Of a stretch of DNA of 64,000 bases, positions 15,873-45,235 are shown piece after piece; within the stretch, counting starts at the first letter, position 1; the number at the start of each line of letters is the position of its first letter. The notes beneath the pieces were generated by a model. The model was given only the letters and a program-made list of their open reading frames with translations. It was not told where the DNA came from and made no database searches. This DNA is from Acanthochlamys bracteata (lineage: Eukaryota > Streptophyta > Magnoliopsida > Pandanales > Velloziaceae). Position numbers and translations under genes: made by a program. The stretch covers positions 1,116,001-1,180,000 of the forward strand of contig CM034129.1 in the NCBI GenBank assembly GCA_019914995.1. The letters run 5' to 3'.

Positions 15873-18550
15873 CTAGCCAAACCCAAGTATGCGAGGTGCA
15901 AGCTTCACAAGAGGTTCCAAGGCACTTGGTGCAAATTTTCTAGCGAAGACGTGACAAATATGTGAAGCGCGGTCATTGTACCTGCAATTATGTCCTTCGA
16001 GAATCTTCTTAAGAAATTCCTCCGTTATATCGCCTTTTCCAAATGTTGCAGGGTGAGCTCCACCCCTAGACCAATCGACCCATGTTATTGTCCTGTTAGC
16101 CAAGAGATGTGGTGCTTCGATATAGAGCATAGTTGGGAAGTAGTGCTCATCAACATAGCAGTTGGGCTTGCAGAATTCCTTGAACTTCGGGTAATAAACG
16201 GTGTCTTTGACAATAGTTACAGCAAGCCTCCTGTCAATTTCAAACCACTGGGAGGCTTTACGCCACTGTGTTATGTTGACTTCTGGAGCCATGTTGGGAT
16301 TATACCTCCCTCTACCGTAAGGGCCGGGATCATCAAATGCACCAATAAAGCTGTATATAGATCCCCTCAAGTATGTGTAAACCGTACTGAAGTTGTACAG
16401 AGGAATGCATGACTCAGATAGTAGGACAAACCATTCGTTTGAAATGTCGAGCAATGCATTTGCAAGGAGCCGCCTCTCAGCGTCAGACATGCTCATTGTT
16501 CCCCATACAACCTCCTGCAGAAAGAATAAAACATAAGCACACGACTTTACCTAGAGAACAAAGAAAAAACCTGCTCCATATCCATATATATATATACACG
16601 TCTTTAAAAGTTCAATTAACATTTATATAATGTTTAAGAAATCATAAAATATGCTTGATTCATAATACAAAAGAAAGCATACATTAGCTTGCTCTGTACT
16701 GATTTCCACATTATAAACATCACCTTGATCCTATAAAATCTTAACACTTAATTTTTGCCAATTTTGCATTTAAGTACCATGCAGAGGCTTGCCTCTATGA
16801 CAGAAAAACATATTTAAAGTGTTTTGTTATTATCAACAGCTAGAGGAAGTTGCAAAATGACCACAACATCACATTATATTCATAATGCATGTATGCACTC
16901 GTGCATCTTCCAGCTAGCTTTTTTATCTCTAAGTCACCAACCTAATAGGGTTCAAAACCACCTGTTCTCAAATCAGGTGATTAAAGGTTGATTTATAGAG
17001 GAATAGCTCTTACATATTTATCTAGGCTTAATTTAAGCAATCTAGTTGAGTCCCTACTCGCTAATCATCTCCAATAAAAGGTAATTTTTCCTTTAAAAGA
17101 ACAAGAGAAATATCACCTAATGGCAGGACCATTACATTTACATATAAAGAGACCATGATTTTGGGAATTAGCATCATTTTAATAAAACATTTAGGATGAT
17201 ACATTGAGGAAAGGTTGCATGAAAACATAGGATATACCTCAAATATACGAAAGAGTTGTAAGTATTATAACATACCAACATCAAGTTTTGAATTGTACTA
17301 TGTGATACAAGCAGTATATGTACTTTATTCAAAACTACTTGGGGCATAATCCCCGCCAGAGCTTTGAGATTGCTGTATTGACTAGAGATTGCATCTAGCC
17401 TGAAGAGATGCTACCTGAAAAGAACTTATGACTTATACAAGATTCATGCCAGAAAGTCCTCGGCTTAAAAGACAAAACGCACATGAAAGAAACTTAATAC
17501 ACCTAAGTCCTTTGCCAAATTGACTCTCAATAGTTCGCTATAGTATTAGAAAGTCAATGACATCTAAATCCTAGCAGATGTGACTATACATATTCAGACT
17601 TCAAACTGGCTATTTGCAGACAAAATTGGAAAAATATAACAGTATTGAACCTTCAAACTAGGTGCAATAACAATACAAAACGACCATGTTTACATAGACT
17701 TAGGATCCATTAGAAACTTAACCGTCTAATAGAGTTTCTAAGAAATATTTTGCAAGCAACTCATGTACACATGTAGGTTGCTTGATTACCGTAAACAGTA
17801 TTTAATTATAAGTTTATCTTCTGTGGAATTGACAAAGCCCCTTTCATTGAAGCCTATACATCTACCTAGCATATTCTAGATAAGTTACAAACGAGGAGAT
17901 TACCAATTATGTTATGCTTGTGTGAGGAAGAAATAAATTTTAATGTAACACAATAGGCTTGACAAGTTACCATCTTTCAAGAACGAAACTTGACAAATGA
18001 TAAGAAATTGACATTAACTCAACTGTACCTTGCTTGGGATCTGCCTCCCGTAAAAACTTGAATTTGCAGAAAAGTTAGGCATATAAGTTGGCAACGTATG
18101 TACATAAACCGTGTATAGCCCTTCATTCCCTTGAAAAAATTTGTCCCACAGTTGAGCAAGTGGCAAAGGCCCAACCGCAAGAAACATGAAAGCAATCTTC
18201 GGTATCCTTCTGAATGGGTACTTCTTAACCTGAGGAACCATAGACGCTCTCCAAAATAGCTCCTCATCTGACATTTTGTGAATCAAGTTCAACGGCGGCT
18301 TTATCCACTTACTAAGTGTATCACTATCCTGCTCCTCAACTCTGCATGGTTGATAACTCGGATGGATTTCCTTAATCACAGCCTGTGTCTGAACGCCATA
18401 AAACCGAGTCATATAAATACTAAAAATCGAAAATCCTATGCCGGCGACTATGAAAAACACCAAAACTATGAGTATCCTATAAGGAAAATGTCTGTGACTA
18501 TGACTCCTCTGTGTTGGATCTTTACCGTCTTCTAACACCCTACTCTGCAT
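15873..18550 (-). CDS. GT14-family glycosyltransferase (core-2/I-branching-like)
   Basis: Two exons: 18,550-18,029 and 16,514-15,873, with a 1,514-base GT-AG intron (AAGCAAG|GTACAG to CTGCAG|GAGG) in phase 0. The product has 387 residues. It is a type II Golgi membrane protein with a short basic N-terminus, one TM helix at about residues 21-45 ([19 protein letters not shown]) and a luminal catalytic domain. Family signatures include [73 protein letters not shown] and [16 protein letters not shown]. Plant GT14 members of this type are annotated as beta-1,6-N-acetylglucosaminyltransferase-like (BC10-type); donor and acceptor are not shown by sequence. The ATG at 18,550 is chosen because it lies just before the TM region; an in-frame ATG at 18,655 would add 35 atypical residues. 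Part of exon 1 and the intron recur at 42.6 kb. Confidence 0.93.
16515..18028 (-). other. large intron of the GT14 gene
   Basis: No coding sequence or clear inserted element is seen. Its 5' end (18,028 down to about 17,583) is the part duplicated, with exon 1 sequence, at 42,601-43,129. Confidence 0.75.
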
Positions 18551-19019
18551 CTCACCGGAAAAAAAAAACAAATTTCGAACAATTCGATCAAATTTATTTT
18601 CTCTGCATCTCAATTCCAGAACTCTTATGCAATCCAACAATACTTCTCGATCCAAAAATCAGATTGATTCTACCACAACCATCCAAACTCCTCCCCGCCG
18701 CTGAAGCAATCACAATTCGTGTCCAATGTACTAAGATTTCCTTAACTCGACTTTTTAGATCGAAAATCACAAGTGGGCTGTCTCCCAAAAATTGAAGCCA
18801 AAAACCTTCCTGGTAGATCTTGATCGAAATTTAACTGAATTTGTTGATATCTAAGCATGTGAAGAAAACAAACACAGATTGGAATCGAAGAAAATTCTAG
18901 TTAGAAACGAATGAATCTCGACGGTTGCTGACTTCTCTGACAAAGATCTGTTTCGGCGCTAGTTGGGTTTGGCTCACGGGAAGAATCTTGGGTAACTAAT
19001 TTCTGAAGACTGTAATTTA

Positions 19020-40919: not shown

Positions 40920-42412
40920 AAAATGTTTTCAATTCCCTATCAAAGAAAATTACAGCAACTTGTTTGTATCGACGCGAGCAATGGAGTTAAGGGGTTTTCT
41001 GTTGACACGTGTTGATAATTAGCATGGGAAAGTGTTTGTTAGGATTTAATGGTTAGGGAAATATTTGAACTGAATGTAATTTACTTTGTGCATTCCCAGA
41101 AAAAAAAATTCTTTTTTAACTTTGTCTACTTTCTAATTGGCTAGTTTTTGTCTGAAAATAAAATTCCACCAATATTTATATATTTTTGCTAGCGAAATTA
41201 AATCACAATAAAATATATTTTCTTGGATATTTATTTATGTATTGATGCTAAAGTCGTTTGTTACTTATACAATATTGTGTATATTAATAAATTAAGCAGT
41301 ACTATATTTTAAATTTGGAAACGATTAGGCATTAAGGTATAAGGCATTGAGATTTTATTTTCTTATTTTTTCTGGCACTCGTATTTAGAATTTTTATAAT
41401 AAAAGTTTTTATTATAATTTTTGAAGGAATAGTTTTACAACTTTAAAATAATAAAAAAATATATATATAACTTTTATAATAAATAGTTATTTTTTAAATT
41501 AACAAATTTTTAAAATATGATATAATATTTTTGAAATAAAAAGTAAAATGAAGATAAAGAACACTTGAAAGTACCTTCAAAAATGTACTATAGAAATGTA
41601 TATTTTAATATTAAATTCACTTTTTAAAAATATATTTAAAAAACTAAAAATATAAAAATTAAAATTTTATATTCTTTTAGTATTTAAAAGATAAGTTTTC
41701 AAATTAAATATTAAAAATAAATTTTATAAAAATAAATTTTTAATTTTATTAACTTTAGAAATAAATTAAAAAATAAATTTACTAAACCGATAAACAAGCT
41801 TAAACTGTGGATAAGTAGTGGATATACTATATTAGAAGCAGTTTTTGACAAAGAATCAGCAGGCGCGTTTATCCGTGCTTTTCTAGAAAACATTTTTAAT
41901 TTTTAATTTTATATTTTTAATAATTTATTTATAAATTTATTTTTATATTTTTTAAATTTTTATTTAAATTTTATTTATAAAATTTAAAAGTATAAGAAAG
42001 CTTTATGTAATAAAATATTTTATTATTTAATTTTATTAATTTTTTAAATAAAAAATAAAACTCATTTTAAAATAAAATATAAATATAAATTATTTCAAAA
42101 TTATATTTTTTATAATTAATTTTAAACGTCCCAATATCTAAAATATGTTTAAAATTTTGAACTTTTTAATTTATGTGAACCACGAATGAACTCAGAGGAC
42201 TTCGGCTGACATTTTTCTTTGTATCCAGAAGCTCGCCAAATTCTTTCCCAGCGAGGAAGTCCAAAGTCTAGAAGCACCTAGAAATTAATCGGATAACAAC
42301 CTCCTCGATCGTGTGCATACAATGACCATTTGCATAACAAATATTAATATACATGTGAAATAGGTTCGGTTGCACGTAGTTTATCACTACAAACGGATTC
42401 CATCAAAACTCT
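40920..42412. other. intergenic AT-rich region, no gene seen
   Basis: No coding signal. Dense A/T islands lie at 41,400-41,760 and 41,890-42,170. The PSK promoter probably occupies the first few hundred bases. Confidence 0.5.
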
Positions 42413-42600
42413 TATGGTGTGTTTGGATGAAGAGTTACTAAAGAGGAGGAAGTAGAAGGAGAAGAAGGGATAGAAAAGAAAGAAGAAAATTTTGATAGTG
42501 TTCGGATATATTAGTAAAGAGAAAAAAGTATAAGAATAAATTGTGTTTGAATTAGAAGAAGAACGAAAGAAGAATTATAAGAAAAAGATAGAAATACCTT

Positions 42601-43129
42601 TATACACTGTTTATATACATATGTTGCCAATTTATAAGGCTAATTTTTCTGCAAATTCAAGTTTTTATGGGAGGCAGATCCCAAGCAAGGTACAATTGCT
42701 GTTAATGTCAATTTCTGATCATTTGTCAAGTTTTGTTCTTGAAAGATGGTAATTTGTCAAGCCTATTGTGTTACATTAAAATTTATTTCTTCCACACACA
42801 AGCATAACATAATTGGTGAATCTTCTCATTTTTTAACTTATCTACAATATGCTAGGTAGATGTATAGGCTTCAATGAAAGGGGCTTTGTAAATTCCACAG
42901 AAGATAAACTTATAGTTAAATGTTGATTACGGTAATCAAACAACCTACATGAGTTGCTTGCAAAATATTTCTTAGAAACTCTATTAGACGGTGAAGTTTC
43001 TAATGATCCTAAGTCTATGTAAACATGGTTGTGTATTGTTATTGTACATAATTTGAAGGTTCAATATTGTTATATTTTTCCAATTTTGTCTGCAAATATC
43101 CCAGTTTGAAGTCTGACAATGTATAGTCT
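42601..43129 (+). pseudogene. GT14 gene fragment (exon 1 end plus intron), duplicated from 18 kb
   Basis: This matches the reverse complement of 17,583-18,117. It begins in codons for [20 protein letters not shown], runs through YGRQIPSK, then crosses the splice donor (AAG|GTACA) into about 430 bases of intron with words such as AGGTAGATGTATAGGCTTCA. By eye, identity is roughly 90 percent with small indels. The donor or a close paralog of it is the intact GT14 gene in this window, in opposite orientation about 24.5 kb away. Confidence 0.93.
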
Positions 43130-43157
43130 GCAAATAACCAGTTAAATGCAAATAACA

Positions 43158-43440
43158 AGTTATTAAGAACTCTTCTCAGTCTTAGCAGCAGTAGCAGCAG
43201 CTTGTTCGCAGAGACATCCGGTTCTCTTGGCAGCAATGAGACCAATCTTCTGTCCAGGGAGGAGCATCACGCATTACCGTCGACGCGTGACCAATATGCT
43301 GGCGGTTACCACCTCCATGGAGATGTGCATCACCAGCCTCAAGACGTGGTTTCTCAGTTCTACCATTGCCAGCAACTTGCCCAATCATCGCTCTACATCT
43401 ACTAGGAAGAACTTTCTTTGCACCAGATGGGAGCTTAACT
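43158..43440 (-). pseudogene. fragment of 60S ribosomal protein L8 (uL2)
   Basis: The minus strand encodes the C-terminal part of cytosolic uL2: [20 protein letters not shown], then [10 protein letters not shown], then [20 protein letters not shown], and, one base out of frame, [14 protein letters not shown] followed by [11 protein letters not shown]. Some 24 residues of the family (about YHKFRVKRN to AMNPVEHP) are missing before HGGGN. An extra C shifts the frame after RDAP. A preserved acceptor-like TTGCAG before the first exon implies a genomic rather than cDNA source. uL2 is a core protein of the large ribosomal subunit; this piece cannot encode it. Confidence 0.9.
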
Positions 43441-43695
43441 CTGCAAGTATATGAAGTCAAAACATCATCTTGTCTGTTTTGCAGGAGTGCTAAAGCTAAC
43501 TGCACATTCCTTATTATCTTTATCTGATGTCAGTATACCCTTATGTTCATCAGCTTTTGGTTCTGGCATCCTACTCAAGATCTGGTAAAATGTTGACATA
43601 GCTTTGAAAAACAACTTGACGTGCCAAAGTTCGAAAAAAGAAAACTTCAAACAGTAGGGCTAGGAGGTGAGCTCCCTGCTCACTACTTGTCCTAC

Positions 43696-43739
43696 CTCAT
43701 GAAGGTGCCAAGATATATAGGCATCAGTGGCAGCATACT
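43696..43739 (-). pseudogene. exon fragment of a 3'-5' exonuclease-domain protein
   Basis: Flanked by CCCAG on the 5' side and GAG|GTAGG on the 3' side, the minus strand reads YAATDAYISWHLHE. This is the YAATDAY/A motif (Exo III, with the catalytic Tyr and Asp) of DnaQ-like 3'-5' exonucleases such as WRN-exo and RNase D relatives. Downstream minus-strand sequence to about 43,510 is open and reads STFYQILSRMPEPKADEHKG; it may belong to the same source gene. Only this fragment is present. Confidence 0.6.
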
Positions 43740-44149
43740 GGGTATTTCACTACAGCAGAGCAGAGACAATAGGTAACATGTTAAGAGGGAAAAGACTTCA
43801 AATTACGACCTTAGTATTGTTTGCCAAAATCTTTATCAAATAATCATGAAATCTTTCTGCAATTTTTTGTATGAATCATGCTGCAATTATTCAGCAATTA
43901 GTAGAAACTAAGTACCACTGGACCAAGAGGTCAATATTTCTCAAAGAAGTTCAAGTCTTCCTTTAAGATATTTAAATGAAATTTTAAAAAATAAAAGACA
44001 TGAAAGTATAAGAAGCCAATTAATATTTACTCATAAGAAAGAAGAAAATCTACTATATACCGATTTATGTTCAAAAAGGCACTAAAAGTTGAATATATCT
44101 TAATTGCTAATCAGTTCTAGTGAGAACATGTCTGTCCAATTTCTGAACT

Positions 44150-44420
44150 ACTGATCTCCATTGAGAGTTAGAGAATACAGCGATTTGCTGATATCTGCTA
44201 GTAGGAGTGGTGAGCAAGCGCTGGCGTTTGGAGAGATAGTAAGAAACATCGATCAATCGGAGCTCGGCCTCAGCGTTCCATTGGAGAGCAAGGGCGACAA
44301 CAAATTGCCGATAAAAAACGAGAGTGGGGAAGCCAGAGAGCGAGCGCTGATCGCTCGAGCGAGGGCAGTGTTGAAAAGAAAAACGCGTCTCCTCATTTAC
44401 ACCCCAAATCGGGGTGTAAT
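44150..44420. other. GC-rich unidentified segment with a hairpin
   Basis: Open on both strands: on plus, REYSDLLISASRSGEQALAF and on minus, a frame containing ALQWNAEAELRLIDVSYYL. Neither is recognised. ACACCCC and GGGGTGT around AAATC at 44,400-44,418 form a perfect 7-bp stem. It is probably another captured piece inside the element. Confidence 0.3.
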
Positions 44421-44582
44421 TGTTCACCTGCAAACAGTAGCATTTTTTTTCCCTCTCTTTCCCCCTTCCTACCTTCCTCTCGAACAGTAATATGTTAACC
44501 AAACACAACATGGGGGAGAATCGATTTCCTCTTCCCTCCGTTACCATTACGTACCCACCAACCAAACACACTTAAAGACTTA

Positions 44583-45235
44583 GTGTGCGTTCTTTTACGC
44601 ACGAAAGTGACTTCATTTTTACTAAAAAGTTATTTTAACTCATATTTTATTATAAAAAATATAAAAATTACTTTCAATTTATTTTTAATAAAAAAAATAT
44701 ATTATTTTTTAAATAATATTATTTTTAACAATTCACTTCCAAAACAAAAAAATGAATATTTATTTATTAACTCACCAAATTTAATAATTTAAAATGTATT
44801 CTAATATAAAATAAATAAATAATTTAAAATTAATTATTTTATTAAGAATTTATTTTTAAATAGTAAGTAAATATATATTTTACATTTTAGTAAATATTCA
44901 TTTATTTTAAAATAAACACGCTTTTATTATCACATAGTTTTCAGATGCATTTGTTTCACGGTAATGAACTTACTATAAAATAACAAATATAATATAATTT
45001 AGATAAAATATTTTCAAAATATTTAAAAGTAACTTAATATTATTATTTTAAAAATATTATATGAGGTAAATGAATGCACTCTTATAACATGAAACTCAAC
45101 TCGTCACCCAACATTGGAATTGGACTGACTTGAGCTTACTATAAATCTGAATACGGGTTAGACAGTTTTCACTGTCAGAAACCTTCTACAGTGACCAAAT
45201 TATCCATCTCCGACAAGGGACTATTCAAATGACCT
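44583..45235. other. intergenic AT-rich region, no gene seen
   Basis: Nearly pure A/T between 44,620 and 45,060. No gene or element ends were identified with confidence. Confidence 0.45.

Follow-up and report, generated by a model that had tools for sequence, protein, structure and literature searches.

Pack-MULEs have Mutator ends and target-site duplications of 8-11 bp. Maize and rice are known to contain Pack-PIFs (Gisby and Catoni 2022, PMC8903248), and the same study describes one maize family in which two gene pieces were gained stepwise, together with a tandem-insertion model in which a pair of PIF elements flanking a gene is mobilised as one. Gap-filling and FoSTeST models are described for animal Pack-TIRs (PMC8277862), and a review of 2026 treats the capture of unlinked genes as an open question (PMC13317346).

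Here we examine a composite element from Acanthochlamys bracteata, found in a 64,000-nucleotide stretch of DNA (the window, C4:1116001-1180000; source genome 195.5 Mb in 557 contigs). We put at about 0.85 the probability that it is a non-autonomous PIF/Harbinger element, that is, a Pack-PIF, with one piece, from uL2 (RPL8), obtained second-hand. The features of the window copy and of the donor gene in the same window are as follows:

15873-18658, minus strand: GT14 (core-2/I-branching) donor gene, with at least these limits; PF02485 in two ORFs; captured stretch 17582-18117
42412-42414, no strand: target-site duplication TTA, left copy, repeated at 44572-44574; same layout at other copies
42415-42600, plus strand: left terminal inverted repeat and purine-rich subterminal transposon DNA, common to many elements
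42601-43128, plus strand: last part of GT14 exon 1, with about 440 bp of the intron after it; 91% to window 17582-18117 (minus strand), with a protein match
43129-43462, minus strand: uL2 (RPL8) piece lacking 70 bp of coding DNA, the same deletion as in another uL2-carrying transposon family
43459-43741, minus strand: 3'-5' exonuclease exon with YAATDAY, plus downstream DNA; 95% to C2:13809419-13809701, PF01612 in the donor exon
43737-44169, minus strand: exonuclease intron 1 with the first bases of exon 2 (exon limits read from ORFs); 91% to C2:13807111-13807548
44169-44171, no strand: internal deletion junction, 942 bp of exonuclease DNA gone, a segment retained by the C18 copy
44171-44287, minus strand: part of exonuclease exon 1 (GC-rich); 86% to L011 581-707, with a protein match
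44288-44571, plus strand: right transposon end, subterminally pyrimidine-rich, with the terminal inverted repeat CCAAACACAC; genome matches to the C13 right end
44572-44574, no strand: target-site duplication TTA, right copy, a direct repeat with 42412-42414

Like the Pack-PIFs of maize and rice in the account of PMC8903248, the composite has PIF/Harbinger ends and a TTA/TAA duplication, is non-autonomous and multicopy, and carries gene pieces. It differs from those described there in that it keeps introns and joins pieces of three genes, one apparently received via another Pack element, and its pieces, at about 0.3-1.5 kb, are longer than the 163 and 58 bp of maize cluster 18 (PMC8903248). 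Pack-MULEs, as presented in PMC8277862 and PMC13317346, likewise hold pieces of unlinked genes and are multicopy, but the composite has a 3-bp TWA duplication and DDE_Tnp_4 partners, and is not Mutator. With the animal Pack-TIRs portrayed in PMC8277862 it would share template switching, short microhomology and multicopy spread, whereas the plant composite would have had several templates, one of them itself a Pack element. Its ends are related to those of autonomous PIF/Harbinger elements, which have the same TWA duplication and of which candidates here are elements on C2 and C11 with DDE_Tnp_4 ORFs and, on C2, a Myb/SANT ORF; unlike them, the window copy is without transposase coding. The composite is a new Pack-PIF, unusually traceable and with an unusually clear history.

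The window element extends from 42415 to 44571, 1 bp further to the left than the 42416-44571 given in an earlier note on this DNA, and the ends claimed there are present: the left end reads TGGTGTGTTTGG (42415-42426) and the right end, the inverted repeat listed above, occupies 44562-44571, with a direct TTA on both sides. The C18 copy ends in CGGTGTGTTTGG...CCAAACACACCG, again with direct TTA outside, and the outermost CG of the other copies is gone from the ends of the window copy. The purine- and pyrimidine-rich subterminal DNA that the note had pointed out is indeed sequence common to other elements. Of 16 loci examined, five with one end absent or doubtful were left out of the count (C4:10.4 Mb, C7, C5, C13:4.9 Mb and C12), and an identical direct TTA or TAA was found in 10 of the 11 with both ends paired; the eleventh, on C11, reads TTA/CTA. 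Because the two sides agree, where a repeat belonging to inverted ends would pair TTA with TAA, the TTA is a target-site duplication and not an inverted end. A TTA/TAA duplication with such ends is the PIF/Harbinger pattern; the window copy shows the 3-bp form (TTA/TTA), and the longer duplication of a Pack-MULE is absent, the flanking repeat being 3 bp.

Used as a genome query, the right end of the C13 copy gave 22 matches, comprising the three composites, the exonuclease gene and 18 others; the query started inside the exonuclease piece, which explains the presence of that gene. Three further elements of about 2.4 kb have both ends of the composite's kind (C3:1868280-1870711, C12:1442392-1444781 and C16:3439342-3441770). 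In two copies (L031 near 1748 and L035 near 2087) the left end is doubled: GTTTGG recurs a few bases further in, which may reflect a duplicated end or a nested insertion. To its right the window element is flanked (44582-44740) by a common AT-rich repeat, found in at least 38 other places at 79-86%, with three weaker side pieces, among the best 40 of 336 candidates.

DDE_Tnp_4 has at least 151 matches in the genome, and two pairs of these are flanked by related ends, at C2:7594682-7601061 and C11:2391572-2397492. Both elements have terminal inverted repeats in common with the composite and contain two ORFs each that match DDE_Tnp_4. One ORF of the C2 element matches Myb_DNA-bind_3 (PF12776, E 3.2e-13), a Myb/SANT domain, and two ORFs tested in the C11 element gave no Myb match. 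Both elements lie within direct TTA. On this evidence the two are candidate autonomous partners, of the kind that the genome check proposed in the earlier note was meant to find. The left end of the C18 copy matches both of them at 86% over 203 bp, and a uL2-family element on C5 equally well; the right end is closer to an element on C10 (87%) than to either candidate (about 70%), and a tree of left ends gave no resolution of the parent subfamily.

A genome search with the window element returned at least 49 matches (best 40 of 162 candidates), and the whole composite is found at two further loci, on C18 (about 3.1 kb) and on C13 (about 2.1 kb). The three copies are about 94% alike over their common length, each lies inside direct TTA, and all have the same order: left end, GT14, uL2, exonuclease, right end. 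Could the locus owe its structure to segmental duplication, or to separate insertions of gene pieces, with no transposon involved? We found no support for this, and with three unlinked copies that have the whole order and both ends in common but differ in their flanks, segmental duplication was rejected and the reading as a whole deserves practically no credence. Neither ends confined to one locus nor a segmental duplication, the two outcomes that the earlier note had named as contrary to its reading, is what this genome contains: further loci share the ends, three unlinked copies sit in TTA duplications and candidate autonomous partners exist, all of which bears out the Pack-type organisation first proposed. 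Consistent with the Pack-TYPE definition, the element is non-autonomous and has host-gene pieces between intact ends, those of the window copy minus the outermost CG.

The copies differ in what they have lost. The 942-bp segment gone from the window copy has only two matches in the genome, the C18 copy and the exonuclease gene on C2, and the C13 copy has a different, somewhat larger deletion of the segment kept in C18. Since C18 keeps the segment and the two deletions differ, those in the window and C13 copies are later and separate. In the GT14 and exonuclease blocks, 58 changes set all three copies apart from the donor, private changes number 18 (window), 29 (C18) and 24 (C13), and pair-shared changes 3, 2 and 0 (1290 ungapped sites, with 46 gapped columns excluded); in the uL2 part (321 sites) the private changes are 10, 6 and 8 in the same order, and the pair-shared ones 2, 1 and 1. 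The three copies form a star, and the window copy shows no sign of being its root. A joined-flank search of the same genome for an empty site of the window and C18 insertions nowhere matched both flanks together.

The GT14 piece (element 186-713) matches C4:1133582-1134117 on the minus strand, that is window 17582-18117, at 91% (E 5.8e-211), and the gene there contains PF02485, in agreement with the exon-intron piece first described. Outside the composites the piece has one more match among those listed, on C6 at 75% (best 40 of 162 candidates). The GT14 gene at window 17582-18117 is the direct donor. As this donor lies 24.3 kb from the window copy, one might suppose that the composite was assembled near the GT14 gene, with the window as birthplace, C18 and C13 as daughters and the 942 bp lost later, a course of events compatible with template switching. 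By chance alone such proximity has a probability of about 0.15% (3 copies x 2 direct donors x 2 x 24.3 kb / 195.5 Mb), in a case that was picked for its proximity, and animal Pack-TIRs present in single copy are reported to be biased towards nearby donors (PMC8277862); yet C18 retains a segment without which the window copy stands, nothing in the star marks the window as root, and the TTA duplications here are like those of any transposed copy. Capture near the GT14 donor and birth at the window site are possible, but we judge this history unlikely. Of the local acquisition claimed at first, what stands is the donor, in the same window and 24 kb away; against acquisition at this site are the star, the GT14 piece carried by all copies and the greater completeness of C18.

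The other direct donor is a 3'-5' exonuclease gene on C2, the introns of which were kept and which also supplied the GC-rich segment. The exonuclease blocks occupy 1044-1326 (95%), 1322-1754 (91%) and 1756-1872 of the element, and all belong to one C2 gene. The YAATDAY exon is present as claimed, with 95% identity to the C2 gene, and matches PF01612 at 24.3 bits, just over the cut-off of 23.6; the further GC-rich segment also noticed turns out to be exon 1 of the same gene, followed by the transposon's own right end. In the C18 copy the 5' block runs unbroken for about 1.5 kb (from ORFs, exon 1 with intron 1 and the start of exon 2), and it joins the YAATDAY exon across a gap of 1.87 kb in the donor, with a 5-bp overlap. 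A donor ORF inside the gap matches PF01612 at profile positions 80-134 (E 3.9e-4; 20.7 bits, below the 23.6 cut-off), just preceding positions 137-165, those matched by the YAATDAY exon. That a younger insertion in the donor caused the gap was considered and rejected, because the gap contains donor coding sequence. Exons 1, 2 and 3 are inferred from a reading of ORFs, and the ORFs so read (three of the five tested) have no Pfam match.

The uL2 piece has another history. It covers element 717-1044 and, as had been reported, lies on the opposite strand, and the corresponding RPL8 exon carries PF03947, but the piece is short of 70 bp of coding DNA that the two RPL8 genes compared (C1 and C2) both have. 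All three composites have this deletion, with an identical junction, and so do all eight comparable members of another, uL2-carrying PIF family (on C8, C4:10.4 Mb, C7, C1, C14, C5, C11 and C13:4.9 Mb); the ninth member, on C12, ends short of the deletion and was left out of the tree. In that tree the composites fall inside the uL2 family (support 80/87), and family and composites together are separated from the genes (96/94), so that nesting of the composites within the family has moderate support. Over 313 columns the composites agree with one another and differ from the C1 gene in 24, of which eight changes are found in 8/8 family members, 11 in some and five in none, the last as expected of changes made after the transfer. 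At two of the eight changes common to the whole family, the composites agree with the more distant C2 gene, and none of the 313 columns shows the reverse pattern, a C1 base retained in the composites but replaced in all eight members.

The 70-bp deletion and the eight substitutions common to the composites and 8/8 family members lead us to regard the uL2 piece as second-hand, and the common deletion rules against direct capture from RPL8. The opposite direction of transfer fails too, since the family carries a longer RPL8 stretch (L023 1681-2776 in the full member on C11, 1971-2369 in the composite) and so cannot derive from the composite. An origin from cDNA, with the gap as a spliced intron, was likewise rejected: the missing 70 bp are coding in RPL8, and an intron end is kept. 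Three host genes do contribute, as first thought, the GT14 and exonuclease genes directly and uL2 by way of another transposon family; alignment of the pieces to their parents, which the earlier note had proposed, traced the first two to donor genes and gave another PIF family as the parent of the third. In the first titles of the literature surveyed we found no re-capture from another Pack element, and such a case may be in print.

The uL2 family has relatives and contents of its own. Elements at C8:5434610-5436767, C7:3066365-3067296 and C12:3544369-3546301 are of this kind, contain parts of the RPL8 piece and are probably additional members. In the 3.5-kb family (L035:2087-5591, with relatives L029 and L034), stretches other than RPL8 match C5:654270-654652 (86%), C8:2378360-2379291 (88-90%) and C17:1755242-1756349 (81%), and the family is probably itself a composite.

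The composite encodes no evident protein product. Its exon-intron boundaries are retained, and some captured fragments are expressed in other plants according to PMC13317346, as a functional chimeric gene under selection might lead one to expect; such a gene is nevertheless highly improbable, given the 70-bp frame-shifting deletion in the uL2 piece, the interruption of the C18 pieces by stop codons and frame breaks, and the deletions that differ from copy to copy. The retained introns are instead those of genomic capture, as had been argued from the outset: GT14 exon with intron, exonuclease introns and the uL2 intron end all represent genomic pieces, with exon limits and exon-intron boundaries taken from the sequence and its ORFs.

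How, then, were the pieces brought together? Template switching is in our view the probable mechanism. A break in or beside a PIF element would have started repair synthesis, which may then have switched among the GT14 gene on C4, a uL2-carrying PIF copy and the exonuclease gene on C2 before returning to a PIF end, each switch using about 0-5 bp of matching sequence. At the junctions, judged by eye, the overlaps are 5 bp (ACTGG) between the two exonuclease blocks, about 4 bp between exonuclease and right end, and about 1 bp at two others, with no clear overlap between GT14 and uL2. The product, having working ends, would have been spread in trans by the transposase of related elements, the C2 and C11 ones for instance, and its copies would have decayed thereafter. 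That one or a few repair events sufficed, copying the C4 gene, a uL2-carrying Pack-PIF and the C2 gene between PIF ends in a single run, is close to an even proposition, which we put forward tentatively.

The maize precedent suggests another course, in which a pair of flanking PIF insertions moved as a unit, repeatedly, with loss of the inner ends; such fusion of neighbours has been offered for the two gene pieces of maize Pack-PIF cluster 18 (PMC8903248), and the window copy does lie 24.3 kb from one donor. The donors are unlinked, however (C4, C2 and another element), and the pieces adjoin gene-to-gene with no PIF end seen between them; element 206-1867 has no transposon-end match among the at least 49 matches (best 40 of 162 candidates), although inner ends may be deleted. 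Several events would be needed, with the inner ends lost each time, and the gene-to-gene junctions poorly fit the fusion model as set out for maize (PMC8903248). Because the pieces abut gene-to-gene with overlaps of about 0-5 bp and the donors are unlinked, we favour template switching and consider fusion of neighbouring insertions improbable.

With traceable donors, an intermediate family marked by a diagnostic 70-bp deletion, three copies whose divergence can be measured and candidate autonomous partners, much of the order of capture in this composite can be read at the level of single bases. If the history of template switching is true, gene pieces pass between transposon families second-hand, by a route other than the fusion of neighbours. 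The uL2 piece indicates that captured sequence can enter a new element by way of another Pack element, so that independent captures from genes may be overcounted.
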